A stretch of 64,000 nucleotides of DNA from Liolophura sinensis. Lineage: Eukaryota > Mollusca > Polyplacophora > Chitonida > Chitonidae. The stretch is from positions 21,227,295-21,291,294 of the forward strand of contig NC_088298.1 in the NCBI RefSeq assembly GCF_032854445.1, written 5' to 3'. A program made the translations under genes and the position numbers. This document shows, piece by piece, positions 12,852 to 42,000 of the stretch (position 1 is its first letter; every line of letters begins with the position of its first letter). The notes under the pieces were generated by a model. The model saw only the letters and a program-made list of their open reading frames with translations. It had not been told where the DNA came from and searched no databases.

Positions 12852-15822
12852 TAGGTAGATACAGAGGTATAATGGAGTGTGGGTCCGACTACTTGTAAGT
12901 ATACCGCCTATGTAGATATAGAGGTATAATGGAGTGTTGGTCCGACTACTGTAAGTATACCGCTATGTAGATATAGAGGTATAATGGAGTGTGGGTCCGA
13001 CTACTTGTAGCATACCGCTATGTACATACAGGGGTATAATGGAGTGTGGATCCGACTACTTGTAAATATACCGCTATGTAGATGCAGAGGTGGAATGGAG
13101 TGTGGATCCGACTACTTGTAAATATACCGCCATGTAGATACAGAGGTATAATTGAGTGTGGGTCCCAATATTCGTAAGTATACCGCTATGTATATACTGA
13201 GGTATAATGGAGTGTGGGTCCGCCTACTTGTAAGTATACCGCTATGTAGATACTGAGGTATAATGGAGTGTGGGTCCGACTACTCGTTAGTATACCGCTA
13301 TGTACATACAGGGGTATAATGGAGTGTGGGTCCAACTGCTGTAAATATACCGCTATGTAGATGCAGAGGTGTAATGGAGTGTGGATTCGACTACTTGTAA
13401 ATATACCGCTATGTTGATACAGAGGTATAATGGAGTGTGGGTCCAACTACTTGTAAATTTACCGCTATGTAGATGCAGAGGTGGAATGGAGTGTGGATCC
13501 GACTACTTGTAAATATACCGCCATGTAGATACAGAGGTATAATTGAGTGTGGGTCCCAATATTCGTAAGTATACCGCTATGTATATACTCGAGGTATAAT
13601 GGAGTGTGGGTCAGACTACTTGTAAATATACCGCCATGTAGATACAGAGGTATAATGGAGTGTGGATCCGACTACTTGTAAATATACCGCTATGTAGATA
13701 CAGAGGTATAATGGAGTGTGGGTCAGACTACTTGTAAATATACCGCCATGTAGATACAGAGGTATAATTGAGTGTGGGTCCCAATATTCGTAAGTATACC
13801 GCTATGTATATACTGAGGTATAATGGAGTGTGAATCCGACTACTTGTAAATATACCGCTATGTAGATACAGAGGTATAATGGAGTGTGGACCCGACTACT
13901 TGTAAATATACCGCTATGTAGATACATAGGTATAATGGAGTGTGGGTCAGACTACTTGTAAATATACCGCCATGTAGACACAGAGGTATAATGGAGTGTG
14001 GATTCGACCACTTGTAAGTATACCGCTATGTAGATACAGAGGTATAATGGAGTGTGGGTCAGACTACTTGTAAATATACCGCTATGTAGACACAGAGGTA
14101 TAATGGAGTGTGGATTCGACCACTTGTAAGTATACCGCTATGTAGATACAGAGGTATAATGGAGTGTGGGTCAGACTACTTGTAAATATACCGCTATGTA
14201 GACACAGAGGTATAATGGAGTGTGGATTCGACCACTTGTAAGTATACCGCTATGTAGATACAGAGGTATAATGGAGTGTGGGTCAGACTACTTGTAAATA
14301 TACCGCTATGTAGACACAGAGGTATAATGGAGTGTGGATTCGACCACTTGTAAGTATACCGCTATGTAGATACAGAGGTATAATGGAGTGTGGGTCAGAC
14401 TACTTGTATATATACCGCTATGTAGACACAGAGGTATAATGGAGTGTGGATTCGACCACTTGTAAGTATACCGCTATGTAGATACAGAGGTATAATGGAG
14501 TGTGGGTCAGACTACTTGTAAATATACCGCTATGTAGACACAGAGGTATAATGGAGTGTGGATCCGACTACTTGTAAATATACCGCTATGTAGACACAGA
14601 GGTATAATGGAGTGTGGATTCGACCACTTGTAAGTATACCGCTATGTAGATACAGAGGTATAATGGAGTGTGGGTCAGACTACTTGTAAATTATACCGCT
14701 ATGTAGACACAGAGGTATAATGGAGTGTGGATTCGACCACTTGTAAGTATACCGCTATGTAGATACAGAGGTATAATGGAGTGTGGGTCAGACTACTTGT
14801 AAATATACCGCTATGTAGACACAGAGGTATAATGGAGTGTGGATTCGACCACTTGTAAGTATACCGCTATGTAGATACAGAGGTATAATGGAGTGTGGGT
14901 CAGACTACTTGTATATATACCGCTATGTAGACACAGAGGTATAATGGAGTGTGGATTCGACCACTTGTAAGTATACCGCTATGTAGATACAGAGGTATAA
15001 TGGAGTGTGGGTCAGACTACTTGTAAATATACCGCTATGTAGACACAGAGGTATAATGGAGTGTGGATTCGACCACTTGTAAGTATACCGCTATGTAGAT
15101 ACAGAGGTATAATGGAGTGTGGGTCAGACTACTTGTAAATATACCGCTATGTAGACACAGAGGTATAATGGAGTGTGGATTCGACCACTTGTAAGTATAC
15201 CGCTATGTAGATACAGAGGTATAATGGAGTGTGGGTCAGACTACTTGTATATATACCGCTATGTAGACACAGAGGTATAATGGAGTGTGGATTCGACCAC
15301 TTGTAAGTATACCGCTATGTAGATACAGAGGTATAATGGAGTGTGGGTCAGACTACTTGTAAATATACCGCTATGTAGACACAGAGGTATAATGGAGTGT
15401 GGATCCGACTACTTGTAAATATACCGCTATGTAGACACAGAGGTATAATGGAGTGTGGATTCGACCACTTGTAAGTATACCGCTATGTAGATACAGAGGT
15501 ATAATGGAGTGTGGGTCAGACTACTTGTAAATATACCGCTATGTAGACACAGAGGTATAATGGAGTGTGGATTCGACCACTTGTAAGTATACCGCTATGT
15601 AGATACAGAGGTATAATGGAGTGTGGATCCGACTATTTGTAAATATACCGCTATGTAGATACAGAGGTATAATGGAGTGTGGACCCGACTACTTGTAAAT
15701 ATACCGCTATGTAGATGCAGAGGTGTAATGGAATGTGGATCCGACCACTTGTAAGTATACCTCTATGTAGATACAGAGGTATAATGGAGTGTGGATCCGA
15801 CCACTTGTAAGTATACCGCTAT
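12852..15822. repeat. 56-bp satellite array with higher-order structure
   Basis: About 53 copies of a 56-bp unit containing TAGATACAGAGGTATAATGG, AGTGTGGGTC, ACTACTTGTAAATATACCGC and TATG. From about 13970 to 15600 two variants alternate as a 112-bp dimer: GTAGATACAG/GGGTCAGACTAC and GTAGACACAG/GGATTCGACCAC. Diagnostic variants recur 841 bp apart (15 units plus one inserted T). The unit length is not a multiple of 3, so no protein repeat is encoded. Confidence 0.97.
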
Positions 15823-20089: not shown

Positions 20090-23000
20090 ATGGGCAGCCG
20101 GGCTAAGCCTCAGCAAGCCCGCCCCGGGGGGAAGCCTACCGGAAGTGGATTGAACGTGCAGCAGATTAAGGTCGTTTTACTGGGTGACCAAGGTGTTGGG
20201 AAGTCAAGTATAGCCCTTCGTTTCGTGCGAGGAGAGTTTCTGGAACACGGGGAAGCTACAATTGGTGGTAAATAAATTCCTCCTGTGGATTTTGCTCAAA
20301 ACATAATGCATAGAACGTTGATCTTTCAAATAAATTGTTACCATTCAAGCATAAGTGAAAAAGCTTGATTGTAAAACTTGCTAAAAGTGCAAAAGCGTAT
20401 ATGTCGTGTGAAACAATTGTTTTCAGCATTGGTGTTTCCAAAGACGTCTATTTTAGATCCACTTCTTTTGCTGGAGAACTAGTAAAATGATCATGTATAG
20501 ATTGCAGTTGGCCTATTATTGGCCTACTTTTGGCCAAAACTTCCAGAGACTAGCGTCTTCTTTTGGACTCTTCTATTTCCAAAGTATTCAGGCTAAATAA
20601 TGTACACGTTCTATTTCTAGCTGCATTTTTGACGCAGACGACAAAACTGGAGAATCGCGTGATCAAGTTTGATATCTGGGACACAGCGGGTCAAGAGAGG
20701 TATCACAGCCTCGCTCCCATGTACTACAGAGGTGCACAGGCCGCTGTTGTCGTTTATGACGTCACCAGTGAGGTACCACACTTATTCCATTATTTTGAAA
20801 TTTATTTTTTTGCGGAATATTATCCTCTGCCTTGAACTGGTGTTCAGTTTTTATGCTCAATGCACTACATAGTTTTTACATAATTCATTTCTTTTCGGTA
20901 ACTGAGGCCAGGGGCCAATTCCACTAAGCCATTTATGACTTTAGTCAAAATTTAAAATGCGATCTTGAAGCTTATTATTCAGCTTTGAAAATTCAAATTT
21001 CCACCTTATCAATGTTACCTTCGGACAAATGTGTCTAAATTTCAACTTTCAGTACCAAAATCTGAGCATTGTGAAGAGGTTTTAAATTTTGACTTAAGTC
21101 ACAAACGGCTTTGTGGAATCGGCCCCAGAAATAGGCTAATGTTATGGACACTCTGTTCTTTAATGGATCGATCTGTGATCTTTGATTTTTGTTTTATCCA
21201 TTAAAGCTTCCATCCAACCACCATTACCTACTTTGTGCGCATGCGTCACCAGCTTATTTGCTATAAAAGCCTGTATGTGTCTTAGTCATCAGTTCCAGAA
21301 TTATGGAGTATTTCCTCTTTTTCAGAATTCTTTTAAAAGAGCTTTATCCTGGATCAAGGAGCTTCAGCAGCAAGCTAACGCTCACATATTCGTGGTTTTG
21401 GCGGGAAATAAAGCTGACATGGCCACTGAGGAGAGGGCGGTACCAAACGAGGTAACACGTGTCAATCAAGTACCACCAAGCCACACCCATCGCCATGTGC
21501 AATGGGAAATCTGTAAAAGTTTTTGTTATAAATGACAGCGCTTTATTTATTTATTTATTTATTCATAACGTTCATTCATCCTCTGAACTCAGTGACATTC
21601 TGTCCAAAAGGGGACTCTGTGGTCGAGGGGATTAGCACGCCAGCGCTGTGCAATAACCCAGAAGCATAAGTTGCCGTGAGTTCAAGTCCAGCTCATGCTG
21701 GCTTCCTTTCCGGCCGTACGTGGAAAGGTCTGCCAGCAGCCTGCGGATGGTCGTGGGTTTCCCCCGGTTGCTGCCTGGTTTCTTTCCAGCATAATGCTGG
21801 TCGCCGTCGTATAAGTGAAATATTCTTGAGTACGATGTAAAACACCAATCAAATAAATAAATAAATAGAAGTCGCTTGAGCCTTGCCTGCAACACCAACG
21901 TTTATCTAACGCCACTTCTGTTGCTTCTGGTCTTAATAGTCAAAGTAGAAAATGGAGTTCTAGTTATTTGATAACTTAGATATTATTCCAATAAGACACA
22001 CAAGCACTTGCGGTAATCGTTTATTTAGCCATTTAGGCCGTACAGCTCCTAACCCTTCTCTTACATTTTTACAGGACGCCCGAATCTTTGCGGAGGAGAA
22101 CGATCTGTTTTTTGTAGAAACTTCCGCCAAAACAGGAATGGGGGTACCCGATGTATTTATGGCCGTGGGTGAGTATTCTTCAGTGGGAACGTTTCCCATC
22201 CCTACGTTTTCCCATAGTTCATTTCTACCTTGCAATGGCGATTCGTGGGCAAACTAGAAACGTTGTACTCATGCATTGCAAGTGAACAATGATCAGACCA
22301 GACTCGAGTCGCCATTACGTGGGAAAATGTACCCCATTCTTCTACATTTTCGTTCGTATTCGGACTATTTAACATGCAACATATACACATGTTAAATGAT
22401 ATAGATGGCGTAAATCAGATAAGTACTGGAATTCTAGGTCTACACTGAGACTGAGCTTGAGGCTCTGAGCTTCCCTGAGATTCTGAACTTGACACTCAGA
22501 TGTGTGAATCTGAACCTGATATACAGATACTGTGGTTCGAAGCTTTGGAATTCGGGCGTACCATCCTACACCTAACCAGATCAGATATGTATTTCACTGT
22601 CTAACGTATTTTGTGCTGACTATAGATCGTGTATCATGATGCTGTAATAATATGAACCATGATGCAATAATAAATTGCTACTCTGTTGGAAAGGCGATGG
22701 TTGGCCACCAAATAAAATCTGGCCTAAGACCTAAGGCATGTTGCATGATTAGAATAGGCAATCTCGTCTTCTCATAATAAAAGGTTTGAACTACAGTCAA
22801 CCTGTGAAGGGAGATAATCCAAATTCGACCACTTGACCTTCAGGTCACGGCGCATTCGCTGTGCGAGATCCGTATGCTTCCCTATTCCTATAGTTCTATG
22901 AAAAGACTTTGTTACACCTGCTGGACATATATATTTTTTTTTTACTTTTGACACTGACATTTTAGAGAGAGTGAAATGTCATGTTTACAGTGTGTCTTTC

Positions 23001-23260
23001 CTTAACGACTGCACTTGGGAAAGTCTGTCAGCAACCTGCGGATGGCCGTGGGTTTCCCCCGTGTTCTGCTCGTTTTCCTTCCTCCATAATGCTGGCCGCT
23101 GTGGTATGTATTAAATAAATAATGTGTATTTTCTTTTCCAGCCGATTGCTTAGCAGGGCACTCGAAACGAAGCGGATCGCAGCAACAACAACGTTCCAAT
23201 CAAAATGTCAGACTTCATGAGGCGGAAGATGGTGACAAGAAAAAAGGAGGCTGCTGTTAG
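20090..23260 (+). CDS. Rab5-like small GTPase, five coding exons
   Basis: Exons: 20090-20267, 20621-20772, 21326-21451, 22075-22168, 23142-23260; every intron is GT-AG, with phases 1, 0, 0, 1. The joined frame is 669 nt (222 aa plus stop). Visible motifs are P-loop GDQGVGKS (residues 32-39), switch I TIGAAFLTQT (57-66), [21 protein letters not shown] (79-99), NKAD (138-141), ETSAK (167-171) and a C-terminal GGCC (219-222) suited to double geranylgeranylation. The switch I and switch II stretches match Rab5 as known in animals, so a role in early endosome tethering and fusion through GTP-dependent effector binding is inferred. The start ATG at 20090 follows an in-frame TAA at 20060-20062, and the roughly 25-residue N-terminal extension is normal for Rab5. 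The P-loop and the C-terminal hypervariable region (Q-rich, KKK before GGCC) differ from canonical Rab5, so it may be a Rab5 paralogue rather than the single Rab5 orthologue. Introns 3 and 4 contain SINE copies and intron 2 a MITE. Confidence 0.93.
20911..21126. mobile_element. Short MITE with about 43-bp terminal inverted repeats
   Basis: The left end starts GGGGCCAATTCCACTAAGCC and the right end is CTTTGTGGAATCGGCCCC. Both ends continue into matching AAATTTTGACT blocks. It sits inside intron 2 of the Rab5-like gene. Superfamily unknown. Confidence 0.8.
21609..21868 (+). repeat. SINE family S1 in intron 3 of the Rab5-like gene
   Basis: A diverged head (TGTGGTCGAGGGGATTAGC), B box GAGTTCAAGTCC, full body and tail with (AAAT)n. 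Same strand as the gene. Confidence 0.85.
23012..23123 (+). repeat. SINE family S1 fragment next to a splice acceptor
   Basis: CTTGGGAAAGTCTGTCAGC to CCATAATGCTGGCCGC, then a short AT tail. It ends about 18 bp before the AG of exon 5 of the Rab5-like gene. Confidence 0.75.
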
Positions 23261-31838: not shown

Positions 31839-34800
31839 ATGGCGGGCTTCCAAATTCAACAGATTTACAAACTCAAAGTTGTCATTGTTGGTCCCATCTC
31901 TGTGGGGAAGACGTCGCTAGCCGTCCGTTTTGCCAAGAACACCTACGAAGATATTTACAACCAGACGATCGGGGGTAAGTCACGTGATATGTATGCTAGA
32001 GTTAAATACGTTAGAGGGACGACGAGACAAAAACTTCGGGGGACTCTACAGACTTCGTGGCAACAAAGCAACAAGAGAATAGGACGCATCAGGACTTCTC
32101 ACTGATTGGTTGATTGTCTGATTTGTCGCCATATTCAACAACATTTCACTTATAACCTATGTACGATAGAGAGGAAATTGTGACTCTGAACAAGTGAAGT
32201 AAACCATTCAGGCGCCCGGGGGTAAAACTATAGGTCTTTGGCAAGTAATTGATAACTTTCCAACAAATGACTCAAAGATTTTCCTCTCCACAGCGATTTC
32301 AATATGCATGCCATATTTATGGAAGGCTATGGTGGCTGATGGCGGTAATATAGGCCGCAATCTCAGGGACCCCGCAGAACCAAACCAAACCGAAACCTTC
32401 AGAGGGCGCGAATATCGCAGGTCAGTGTCCTGCGTATCTTCCGCGGGTGCATAAGGGCCACGGTCAGAAATTGACCGGCGTTACGCCCGGGCTAAGGGGA
32501 TTAAACGAACATTTTCGTCTGTCCTGGCGACTGGCACACAAGCATGTTGATCGTATGGTCAGTCCCCCGTCTCCTCCATTCACAAAAATATTTCAGTTAG
32601 ATACTGAACGAATCAGTCCGTATTTTAAGTATAGTATCCATTATAAAGCACGGGCATTAAAACCATCTTAATACTCCGTTGAGATAAAAGCAGTCACAAA
32701 AAGACGAGATAATTAGCTTAAAATTTGTATTTATTTAATGTTTGTTACCTTAATCTTGCGCGAGGACTGACATAAACTTAGCCGATTGAAACTGATCTGG
32801 CTTCGAACTCCCCACCCAATACATATCTACTCACTCCCTATTAAATCAGTGTATAGCCGGAAACGTGTAAGGGCTCAAATCCAAGCAAAAGCCAATGATT
32901 TTATACACCATCACACAGGTAAAATTCAGGATAATTTATTATTGTTTTAATTGACTTTGTCTATTATTTTTCAGCATCATTTATTTCGAGATCTATGGAC
33001 GTAGGCAATCGGACTTTCATGTTCCAGCTATGGGATACTGCTGGACAAGAGAGATATCATTGTCTGGTGCCCATGTACCTACGTGACAGTCACATAGCCC
33101 TAGTCCTCTATGATATCACTGATATGGTGAGTGAGAACTGTGAGAGAGATATCACTGTCTGGTGCCCATATACTTATGGGACAGTCACATAACCCTGGTG
33201 CTCTATGATATCACAGATGTGGTGAGTGGAAACTGCGAGAGAAATATCACTGTCTGGGGCCCATATACTGATGGGACAGTCACATAACCCTGGTCCTCTA
33301 TGATATCACTGATATGGTGAGTGGGAACTGTGAGAGAGATATCACTGTCTGGTGCCTGTATACTTATGGGACAGTCACATAACCCTGGTCCTCTATGATA
33401 TCACTGATATGGTGAGTGAGAACTGGGAGAGAGATATCACTGTCTGGTGCCCATATACTGATGGGACAGTCACATAACCCTGGTCCTCTATGATATCACT
33501 GATATGGTGAGTGGGAACTGTGAGAGAAATATCACTGTCTGGTGCCCATATACTTATGGGACAGTCACATAACCCTGGTCCTCTATGATATCACAGATGT
33601 GGCAAGTTGGGAGTATGAGAGAATTATCACTGTCTGGTCTCCATGTACTTACGGAACAGTCACACGAGGCCCAGACGAGGCCCTTGGACAGGAATGGCCC
33701 CATCCTAATAGTTCTTTGTGACTTTGGGACAGGAAGCTGATGACGACACACATGTGGCGTTTGCGTGTTCTTTCACCAGCATGCTGCGCATATTAGAACA
33801 TCGCACGTAGGACAGTTTGTCAGTAATTTGCCTAAAGGCGGGTGGTTTATCTCGTGCACTTTGGTGTTCACCACCCAGAAAGACTGACTGCCATTGTATA
33901 GGTAAACATTTTTCAGTATGGCGTTAAACAATGAATAAATAAATAAATTTAATGCTATATTACTTTATAATTTAGCTTTTTTTTTATTTTAACATGTTCT
34001 TAACAAGGAGATTAATTGTGGCCCAAGGGCATATAAGAAGTGTTTTATTGTTTTCCTCGCAGACATCCTTCGGATTGGTGACCCTGTACCTAGACTTGTT
34101 ACAGAAAAACGCCCCTGAGAGAGTCGTCATCGTTCTGGTTGGGAACAAAGAGGACAGAGCCTCTGACAGAGTCGTCACGACGAAGGTTAGACCCCGTATA
34201 AAGTTCGTTCTTCGCAGTTTTTGTCATGGTCTTTATATGTATAGACTGCGCATGAACAGGATTTCGTCACATTCTCCTTACAGCGCACTCTCAGCTCTTC
34301 ATGTTTCCTGTACATCAGTGCCACCACTAATAAAGATTTGTACCGGTACAGAATGAACAACGCCGAGGTCACTTGGGTCATGCTGATGAGGCAGGAAATT
34401 TATTTATTTATTTGATTGGTGTTTTACGCCGTACTCAAGAATATTTCACTTATACGACGGCGGCCAGCATAATGGTGTGTGGAAACCGGGCACGACCACG
34501 ACCATCCGCAGGTTGCTGTCAGACCTTCCCACGTACAGCCGGAGAGGAAGCCAGCATGAGCTGGACTTGAACTCACAGCGACCGCATTGGTGAGAGACTC
34601 CTGGGTCATTACGCTGCGGTAGCGAGCTAACCAACTGATCCACGGAGGCCCCGATGAGGCAGAAAAAGATTTTAGAAATAACAAAAGCTTCTTTTGGTAA
34701 AGAAACTTGAACTTTTTTACCACATGTGCCGTTTATCATATTTTCAGATGGGAAGGGATTTCGCTCAAACAAACAAGCTGTTGTTTATGGAGACCTCTGC

Positions 34801-36103
34801 CAAAACCGGTCAAAACGTTGATGATGTTTTCATTTTAGCTAGTAAGTACCCGTATATATTACCGTACCCTAGGGCTGGGGTTAACATGCTTGTCTTATAA
34901 GTCTTAAAGGTAAAAAAAAATCCCACTAAAATGAAGTATAGATTAGATCCTTAAACACTGTCCAGGAAAACAGTTCAATTTACTTTTATAGAATTTTGCC
35001 AACCGAATAAAATGGTTTTAAAACATCATATTCTATATTGGTTTGTTGTGACCCAGAATGTATCAGCGACGTCACATCCAGCAGCGCATTGGCTGCTGGG
35101 TCGTTGCGCCGCGCCGGCGTGCATACCACTTTGGCCCCTCATACTCCATTCGACTGTGCAGTAATAAGTATATATGTTTATGCATTTTCAAGTGATGAAA
35201 TTTAACAGCCTATGTTTGTAAGGTGGTAAACACCTAATGTGACGTCAGCGGCCATAATATCGTCAGAAAAGGTCATCGAAGAATCTGATGTTTTAAACGC
35301 ATTTTGCTAGAATGAAAAAAAAAAAGCTACAAAAATTTGACGGAACTAATTTTATAAGCGGTGTTTAATAGTTCTTCATCTGAAATATCCTTCACGTTAA
35401 TGTTTTCTTGACCTTTACAACACAGGAAGACTGGGTTCAATCCCTGCGCCGCTCACGGTAATCCTCGAATCACTGCATCCCACCGACACCTCCCTCCCCT
35501 CGTAATGCCCGTATAAGAGTTTACCATTATTCGTTTATCAGTTTGCCATTGTTGTAAAGTTTCCGAAATGCTGAACTCCTAGTTTTTGTGTCTATAGAGT
35601 TTGCCAATTTTGTTGCTTGTCCTTCCTTTATTCTGTTTACATGTCAGAAACGACATCGAAACCGTCACTTATAATAAAGAAAGAAAGCTGTCAGCTGGAA
35701 GTAATTCGTTCATTTGTTCAACCACCATCTTCTATACGTTGGGCTACGTTTGTCTCTGACAAGCTTAAATACATTTACGTACAGAGACTAAAGCCGAAAT
35801 GCTACATAAATTCTCCGTCTTTATATCCCAAAGCTATATATTTACCATATGAAATTTTAAAACTTGAATTTTTTTTTGAATGAAAAATCATGAAGAGAGA
35901 CTAGAACAAAAATGTTATACGTTCTGTTTTCTTTTCCAACAGGTAAAAATTTACCCAACGAAATTTCAAGCCGTCGTCATTTTACGAAAGTGGGGACATT
36001 GTTTTTCCGGAGAAAGTTCGACGAGTGTCATCCACTCATGCGCAGAGAAGGTGTTGTTCCTCGTGATGCATCACGTGACTCAGATTTACACAAACTGTTA
36101 TAA
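31839..36103 (+). CDS. Divergent Rab5-related GTPase lacking prenylation cysteines, five coding exons
   Basis: Exons: 31839-31974, 32975-33126, 34063-34185, 34748-34841, 35943-36103; GT-AG introns, phases 1, 0, 0, 1, the same as the Rab5-like gene 8.6 kb upstream. The joined frame is 666 nt (221 aa plus stop). Motifs: P-loop GPISVGKT (18-25), TIGASF (43-48), [10 protein letters not shown] (65-74), NKED (124-127), ETSAK (152-156). All nucleotide-binding motifs are intact and the catalytic-position Gln70 is kept, so GTP binding and hydrolysis are expected. The C-terminal tail (169-221) is basic and ends DLHKLL, with no terminal Cys; Cys197 is the only cysteine in the tail. That is abnormal for a Rab, which needs C-terminal prenyl cysteines for stable membrane attachment. 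An AATAAA lies 75 nt after the stop, supporting this as the true last exon. The ATG has a good context (AAGATGG); an out-of-frame ATG sits 11 nt upstream. Exact subfamily is uncertain (Rab5- or Rab17-like). Confidence 0.87.
33048..33660 (+). repeat. 95-bp tandem duplication of the exon 2/donor junction
   Basis: The last 79 bp of exon 2 plus the first 16 bp of intron 2 (including GTGAGT) are followed by five more copies with an exact 95-bp period. Donor-like sites fall at 33127, 33222, 33317, 33412, 33507 and 33602 (the last is GCAAGT). A partial, diverged seventh copy runs to about 33660. Confidence 0.95.
33838..33950 (+). repeat. SINE-like tail fragment
   Basis: TTTCAGTATGGCGTTAAAC followed by AATGAATAAATAAATAAA, a relative of the S1/S2 tails, in intron 2 of the second Rab gene. 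Confidence 0.5.
34395..34652 (-). repeat. SINE family S1, full length, antisense in intron 3
   Basis: Complete element, with 10-bp target duplications GATGAGGCAG at 34385-34394 and 34653-34662. Antisense to the Rab-related gene. Confidence 0.93.
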
Positions 36104-39046: not shown

Positions 39047-42000
39047 TCATGAAGGCACATAAGGTCCACAAGCCAGCAATAAGTTCCTACGCGTGAAATG
39101 GAGATTCAAAACAGGCGTGTTTTTCGTTCGGTAAGAACCAATCAGCAGCTTAGGGTTGTTGTTTCTGAAATAAAGAAAAACAAATAAAAAAAAACAATGA
39201 ACAAGTGTGTACAAATTTTCAGGAAAAATTTCCCCCAAACATTTCGGTCAGTAATTTAAGCTGTTCTTTAATTTAAACTAAAGAGATCCTTGTATTACCC
39301 TGAGTTTGTGAACGTTTTCTCGAATGTATACATCTTCTTGTCTTTATTTCAGGGATGTTTTACGCTGTACATAAGAATATTTCACTACTATTTCATACAA
39401 GTCCGGTTTAAAAATGTGGTAGGGGGGATACAAACCCACACAAAGCTGAAGCTAAACCAGGGGTAGCTGGGTTCGAACCTTCACTTCGTAGGTGAAGGGT
39501 GAGTGAGCCCTCCCACAGCCTTCAATCCACCAACACCAACTGAGGTCAGTACTTACACGATGAGTGAGGAAGGAATGCTGGCGTCACCGTCCGTGTCCAT
39601 CTCCGTCAATACCAGGTTCATGTCCCATAACTTCACAGTACTATCCAGTCCACCTGGTTAACAGAGCCACAAACTCGTATATTTATTTACTTATTTATTT
39701 CATTTAATTGGTGTTTAAAGTTACTATAAAGATTTTTTTAAAACTTATGCAACGGTGATAAGATTACAGGCTTAGTAAATCTGAGAATCAGGAGACGAAG
39801 TAAACCACTGCACTTCACCACGGGCCACTTTTTTTTTTTAAATTCACAGCGGAATCAGCGAGAGCTGGATTTGAGCCTGCGACCTCATGGGTCAGGTACC
39901 CACAATTTATGATCGGTCAGGTACCGCTAATTTATGATCGGTCAGGTACCCCTAATTTATGATTTACAGGAGACGAAAGAGTCAACATGTGCCATATGTA
40001 ACACAACAAGCGAGAAAGGTTTGTTTTGAGTTTCTAACATGTGTGAAAACCGTGAATTCACTGCTGTTTTCCAGTGAAGAAAGACAACGGCTTAATGTAA
40101 AATTCCATGACTTTTCAGGCCGTGATATTTTATTCCGCATCACACTTTGCTTTCATTGTCCGTTTGACATCACACATTTGCATACTCGGAAGTCTGTCTA
40201 AATTTGACTCAGTGGAGTGCATCACCCCTGTTTGGGCTTGGAAAACGCCATCCATTCATATTTATTCACTCACTTATTCACTAAATCTGACTCAACGTTC
40301 AAAGGGCTCTCCATGAAGTCTCCTTGTACTTCATACATGGCGCTTTGTGCAACAATCAAGGCGCAGCATTGGCAGTGCGTTTTTTTTTTCAGAAATATGT
40401 CAGCAATTAACCTAACCCTCACCTGAAGCCAGTACTCCACCCCCTCGGCTGAAGCAGAGACTGTAAACTGTGTCCGCGTGTGAGACAAACTGTGCCACCA
40501 TTACTCCGGAGGAGAGGTCCCACAGTAAGATCACCTTATCCCGACCTGTGATAAAACAGATAATAACCTAGAAAAGGCTCCGTTCATTCGACTGGAAACC
40601 AATGTTGTCAAAGTGATAGAATCACAATTACTACTGTTTTTATCTGCAAGGTAATTCTTGGTGTTTGTTTCGTTTTAGATCGTGAGGTGCATTTCTGAAA
40701 TGCTCAAGTGTCAACGGGTTGTGAACGTATATCGGTCATTTTACCTTGTTATTTATTTTCTTTGCGTCTATATGCTGAAGAACTCAAGACTTGGTAGCAA
40801 GGCTACTAAAGGGTTAGCGTGCAGGAGAAGTTGTGAATTTTGTAATTAATATGTACACAGAGCATTCACGATGGCACATCCTCCTCGTGTCATTGTGCTA
40901 TACATATGTGCAAAACCTGAGCCCAATACATGCAATACTCTTTCCGACGTTTACTTTAACAATGCATTCATTCATTATTGGACGTTGATGCCGAAGCTTG
41001 GGGTAATTAAGACATAAGCTACTAAAAATGTAAAGTAATTCAAATCCATGACATCCTGGTTTTCAACCTTCACTGTTCCACTTCTTTCAATGGTATTTAG
41101 ACGTTGAGTTGGATAATATAACAAACATATGGATCACAGCTTCTACTTATTCACTGAGCGACGTTTCATGCTTGAGAACGGTATTACCATCTACATGAAT
41201 ACTCAAACGTCGCTCACTGAATCGGTAGACGTTGTGATCCATATATTTGTTATGTGAAGTGCTCCATACTCTATTTCTTCATTTCTACCTAGGGTTTTAG
41301 CAGAATGAAGTGTGTACCAAATATCAGCCTATCTGACTGTGTGGTATCAAGTCCTATACAACGCATAGTAATTTTATTTATTTATTTAATAGGTGTTTTA
41401 CGCCGTCCTCAAGAGTATTTAACTTATAGGACGCCGATCAGCATTATGATGGGAGGATACCGGGCAGAGCGCACAGAGAAAATTTATGAGAAGAATTAGA
41501 CCGTGGTATTCTGTCATTACAGGCTCAGCCACCAAACCTGAATCAACCTAAAGACGCATTGTTGGAAGTGTGAGCCAATATTCCAGGTGAAAGACGTTGC
41601 TAACCTGGTGACAAGCATGTCACGACGTTTGAAAGCCACTATTCACGGAAGAGAAGGGCACACGAAGTACTAATGTTCATCATTACAGCTCATCATTCGC
41701 AATAAATCATATCGAATGCTGAGAGATGGTTTTACAAATAATATTGCCATTTATGCATGTGCTTCTCCGTACACATTTTCAAAACACGCGTAACAGGCTT
41801 ACTCAAAATGGCCGTTTTATTTTTTGACCAAATAAGCGATCGTGGTGAAATTATTGTCATTTCTGAAGTGCTATAAGAGAGAGAATAGAGAAATATAAAC
41901 AGTAAATGTTATTCTTATCAACATTATTTCATGCGACGCTCTCAAACTTCTGCAACAAGATATAATCTTATACGCACCAACCATTTTGGCAAAGACTGTG

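Follow-up and report, generated by a model that had tools for sequence, protein, structure and literature searches.

In the mollusc Liolophura sinensis, the junction between exon 2 and intron 2 of a Rab-type gene has, with a probability that we put at roughly 85%, been duplicated in tandem, giving rise to a 95-bp minisatellite in intron 2 of the type called a 'mirage'. Unless stated otherwise, all coordinates are positions on the forward (+) strand of the window, i.e., the whole stretch of 64,000 nucleotides that was analysed (NC_088298.1, positions 21,227,295 to 21,291,294), and the array analysis is based on a single sequence of the locus.

Two Rab-type genes, both on the + strand, lie in the window at ~20.1-22.2 kb and at 31.8-36 kb, and the array is located in the second. 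Exon 2 of this gene (32975-33126; 152 nt), assigned by its splice sites and reading frame, is preceded by the acceptor TTTTTCAG and followed by intron 2 (33127-34062), of which the array forms the 5' part and which terminates in the acceptor TTCCTCGCAG with pyrimidines at 12 of the 14 positions before the AG. According to the gene model exon 3 follows at 34063-34185, and exons 1-4, when joined, encode a continuous Rab domain. A query copy of the protein with one extra glycine matches Pfam Ras with an E-value of 2.3e-48 and has Rab-5B as its best solved match (E 2.5e-41). The Ras-superfamily domain contains, as judged by eye, the motifs that we take to be the P-loop, WDTAGQE, NKxD and SAK. The C-terminal region is less regular: an open reading frame ending in RRCCSS and a stop is found at 35947-36066, the CAG acceptor at 35942 opens a different frame, and within 35942-36066 a KNLPNE-like start is read in one frame and the RRCCSS stop in another. 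The last exon of the model is therefore tentative, and damage to the terminal part of the gene is possible. For the first Rab gene, an open reading frame at 23123-23260 that ends in KKKGGCC and a stop is a possible cysteine-tail exon. When viral contigs were searched for relatives of the Rab, two pattern matches emerged, none of which was confirmed.

Tandem Repeats Finder places the array at 33048-33664, with a period of 95, 6.5 copies, 90% matches and 0% indels. Self-identity within the array amounts to 0.906 at a lag of 95, 0.902 at 190 and 0.895 at 285, compared to 0.392 for the next-best value outside the array period (lags 20-299), so the periodicity is not a product of chance. The 95-bp unit consists of 79 bp of exon end and 16 bp of intron including the donor, and the array is made up of the real junction, five full extra copies at exact 95-bp steps and a truncated sixth extra one, all on the + strand. 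Unit 1 (33048-33142) comprises the last 79 nt of exon 2 and the 16 nt with which intron 2 begins; the donor that it contains, at 33127, is presumably the true one. The donor GTGAGT recurs in copy 2 (33143-33237; donor at 33222), copy 3 (33238-33332; 33317), copy 4 (33333-33427; 33412) and copy 5 (33428-33522; 33507). Copy 2 contains a TAA at 33190-33192, copies 3 and 5 each have a TGA in the frame corresponding to that of the exon, and in copy 4 the 38 nt around the donor (columns 56-93) are identical to unit 1. In copy 6 (33523-33617) the donor is altered to GCAAGT at 33602 and the intron-derived part departs from the copy 2-6 consensus at 6 of its 16 bases, while copy 7 (33618-33664) is cut after ~47 bp and has no donor. 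The sequence-only reading had described the end of exon 2 and its donor as repeated five more times at an exact 95-bp period, with GTGAGT in four of the extra copies and GCAAGT in one, and both the repeat analyses and the donor positions bear this out; the TAA that it expected on reading past 33127 is indeed in frame with exon 2. Its coordinates for the array were right as well, although it overlooked the truncated copy at 33618-33664.

Two other descriptions of the array do not hold. It is not a tandem exon duplication, as the unit leaves out the first 73 nt of the exon and no whole exon with an acceptor is repeated. Pseudo-exons within the array are ruled out by the lack of acceptors in a simple pyrimidine count: the sole AG with at least 10 pyrimidines at the 14 upstream positions has its end at 33596, which leaves 5 nt to donor 6.

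In the first Rab-type gene, exon 2 (20621-20772, +) likewise has a length of 152 nt, no array follows it, and Tandem Repeats Finder lists no tandem repeats in the adjoining 20773-21325. The two exons end at the corresponding residue and in the same phase (YDVTSE/NSF in the first gene, YDITDM/TSF in the second). As judged at the sequence level, this comparison shows that intron 2 predates the array, since in the paralogue an exon of equal length is followed by an intron that agrees in position and phase but lacks the array. This bears on the model of Rogers, by which intron 2 itself would have been born by tandem duplication of exon sequence. The 5' part of intron 2 does consist of exon-derived repeats, the duplication crosses an exon-intron border as in intron gain of this kind, and one paper cites the case of a fission-yeast intron that extends over a 24-bp segment of exon present in four duplicates (PMC4974935). 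However, the intron of the Rab gene existed before the duplication, as its counterpart in the paralogue indicates, the junction reads ATG/GT and not AG/GT, and the unit supplies no good acceptor; we rejected intron gain by tandem duplication and regard a birth of intron 2 by this route as extremely improbable.

The copies have diverged both from the exon and from each other. Identity is 86.3-97.9% among copies 2-6 and 82.1-90.5% between these copies and the exon unit; for copy 7, compared with the other units in 50 columns, three of which lie beyond its end, it is 78-84%. Some differences from the exon are common to the extra copies, which are thus more than plain duplicates of the exon as it now stands. 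The exon unit differs from the copy 2-6 consensus at seven sites in the exon part and one in the intron part, and five of the seven can be polarised by means of copy 7. All three exon-side changes (columns 13, 32 and 37) are synonymous, and at column 13 the paralogue by eye has C, as the copies do. Both array-side changes (columns 28 and 35) alter the amino acid, copy 7 having the exon state at both columns. The two remaining differences lie beyond copy 7: at column 50 the exon has GCC and the copies ACC, an amino-acid change at which the aligned paralogue codon, by eye, begins like that of the exon with G, and at column 55 the difference between CTA and CTG, which is unpolarised, is synonymous. 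If the exon were free of constraint, three synonymous changes out of three would be expected with a chance of 0.010-0.022, and four out of four, counting the unpolarised column 55, with a chance of 0.002-0.006. These figures are built on three to four sites at which gene conversion could mislead the polarity, and the few sites indicate that the exon probably evolved under protein constraint while the copies drifted. With 17.0 synonymous sites in 27 codons, the 3-4 exon-side changes correspond to ~0.18-0.24 per site, which suggests that the array is old, with the same caution about site number and gene conversion.

Within the array itself no such constraint is apparent. The copies carry stops and vary without codon-position bias, the pairwise differences among copies 2-6 at codon positions 1, 2 and 3 being 10/260, 16/260 and 14/270. 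Private changes in copies 2-6 affect 12 of 395 exon-derived and 10 of 80 intron-derived positions (Fisher P 0.0012), counts that do not represent independent events as some changes are common to two copies (e.g., columns 73 and 77 in copies 2 and 6). When copy 6 is left out, the numbers are 9/316 and 4/64 (P 0.25), and we read the excess in the intron part as an effect of copy 6 at the diverged edge of the array.

The divergence is also what speaks against an assembly artefact, in which a single junction would have been expanded by misassembly. The copy number of tandem arrays is prone to assembly error, and an artefact of this kind should yield near-identical copies. One of the amphioxus mirages appears aberrant in the genome draft according to the accessible part of the report on them (PMC3087553). 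In the Rab gene, however, copies 2-6 differ from each other and from the exon unit to the extent given above and their shared changes are ordered, and synonymous changes on the exon side set against amino-acid changes on the array side count against an error of assembly and in favour of an array of some age. We regard an artefact as very improbable, although the number of copies as assembled may be incorrect.

Is there anything in the sequence that favours the first donor over the others? The pairing energy with U1 is between -10.0 and -10.3 kcal/mol for donors 1-5 and -4.4 kcal/mol for donor 6. Around the donor, the stretch of identity to unit 1 spans 38 nt in copy 4, 31 nt in copies 3 and 5, 9 nt in copy 2 and 3 nt in copy 6. 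With nearly equal U1 pairing and the same 38-nt context at donor 4, donor 1 is not singled out by its local sequence. Moreover, splicing tends to prefer whichever donor lies closest to the intron's acceptor, by which a later donor would be favoured over donor 1. The expectation that any later donor would lead into a truncated frame holds in silico, as all five (donors 2-6) reach the TAA at 33190-33192 and give a product of 117 aa; this TAA sits at the column-50 change, in a different frame of the unit. If donor 2 is used, the stop ends 29 nt upstream of the exon 2/3 join and ~152 nt upstream of the exon 3/4 join, and the latter distance makes decay of a later-donor message plausible.

Taken as a regulatory device, the array would let competing donors divert a tuned share of the transcript to the stop-containing, decayed form, which we consider unlikely. 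Five donors of near-equal U1 pairing, a shared truncated outcome followed, over 100 nt further on, by one or more additional exon joins, and a junction repeat in human CBS that is reportedly associated, by the title of a 2001 paper by Lievers on this 31-bp repeat, with reduced CBS activity are in line with such a role; the donors themselves, however, show no sign of having been kept for it. The hexamer is intact in 4/5 copies, and among the 90 consensus hexamers of the unit 38 are intact in 5/5 and 19 in 4/5, so that its preservation is not unusual and no better than that of the rest of the unit. Furthermore, the donor is altered in copy 6 and missing in copy 7, and the available text on the amphioxus mirages states that the results suggest no interference with regular splicing (PMC3087553). 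A rheostat, in which the fraction of Rab message containing the stop would depend on copy number and selection would keep the donors competent, is quite unlikely too. The sequence-only reading had left a choice between tuning of expression through donor choice and neutral minisatellite growth. The latter fits the sequence, given copies without codon-position bias and a donor hexamer kept no better than other hexamers, and tuning has no support in it.

For the duplicated junction as a minisatellite, we propose that slippage or unequal exchange built the array from the exon-intron junction, and that its interior may have been kept partly homogenised while the far edge decayed. The first donor would serve most of the message because it defines the 152-nt exon, and with this donor the array would be removed as ordinary intron; constraint on the exon would likewise imply that enough message is presumably still made with the first donor. 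Occasional use of a later donor would give a stop-containing message that is probably degraded. A special RNA structure was looked for in the array and not found, with 20 of 20 shuffles folding at least as well (z 2.60).

The surroundings make an array at such a site unremarkable. The window is rich in minisatellites, 18 arrays covering 10.9% of it; these were hand-picked from the 44 rows of the Tandem Repeats Finder output (period at least 10, copies at least 2.8, overlaps mostly merged). When the 18 arrays are placed at random, 57% of 20,000 trials have at least one array on a Rab splice junction, out of 14 such junctions considered, a figure that is boosted by one 2,968-bp array and computed with some junction positions off by one or two bases. 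A single 617-bp array overlaps a Rab junction at 8.3% of positions. On both counts an array on a junction is not remarkable.

Several other features of the window were noted. At 12855-15822 Tandem Repeats Finder reports an array of 53 copies of a 56-bp unit. The + strand of the window has 61 GTRAGT hexamers, of which 22 fall in this array, often at a spacing of 112 bp; the minus strand of the window has 33 such hexamers. The part of intron 2 after the Rab array (~33869-33951) resembles 12 other places in the window with E < 0.01, some of which are short AT-rich runs. One of the 12 is a dispersed repeat at ~34400-34655, which is reminiscent of repeats of mollusc genomes and may be akin to them. 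A WD-repeat-like open reading frame on the minus strand at 40412-40567 weakly matches four WD40-type families of Pfam, in each case short of the curated cut-off.

Repeats that span an exon-intron junction have been described before. In the text available of the report on amphioxus globin genes, 'mirages' are minisatellite-like tandem duplications of exon-intron boundaries, found in these genes and earlier in Adh3 (PMC3087553). The same text gives 6 and 3 units for the BflGb6 mirage in two haplotypes with a unit identity of 81-100%, notes that splice signals are retained in many, not all units and that edge units escape homogenisation, and shows with BflGb9 that the donor side can be involved as well (PMC3087553). 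The Rab array resembles them in that its units span the boundary with 79 bp of exon and 16 bp of intron, that the identity between its units is alike, that its splice signals are partial (GTGAGT in 4/5, GCAAGT in 1/5, none in the truncated copy), and that its core is homogenised while copies 6 and 7 and the exon unit are distinct, as seen from counts and not from a tree. It differs from them in gene and in unit length, which is 95 bp compared to 150-160 bp in the globins and 10-72 bp in Adh3, as given in that text (PMC3087553). A human counterpart is the CBS repeat c.1444_1467+7(16_21), listed in the accessible part of one source with a 31-bp unit (PMC2630376) and in that of another as located at exon 13-intron 13 (PMC1395315). 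Its name gives 24 bp of exon end and 7 bp of intron; a donor thus recurs in every unit. The CBS repeat differs by its 31-bp unit, its 16-21 copies and its polymorphism (PMC2630376, in the part available) from the 95 bp and 6.5 copies in the Rab gene. The likeness is that in both the unit consists of an exon end with its donor.

The title of a 2002 paper by Romano implies the acceptor side for a further CBS variant, 844ins68. The passage available on this variant itself says donor, describing a duplicated intron 7/exon 8 junction of which the distal copy is used (PMC2630376). As in the Rab gene, a junction is duplicated in a working gene; unlike the Rab array, 844ins68 has one extra copy. In the open-licence literature, covered by searches not aimed at this gene or species, the array at the Rab locus was not found.

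The Rab array belongs with the mirages and the CBS repeat, which are the same kind of object, and it extends the documented examples, which in the literature covered come from amphioxus genes and human CBS. From sequence data its standing as a regulatory element is unproven. The locus offers a clear natural example of competition between near-identical donors within a single gene, and since donors 1 and 4 share their 38-nt context, RNA reads from the locus would test the choice between equal 5' splice sites.
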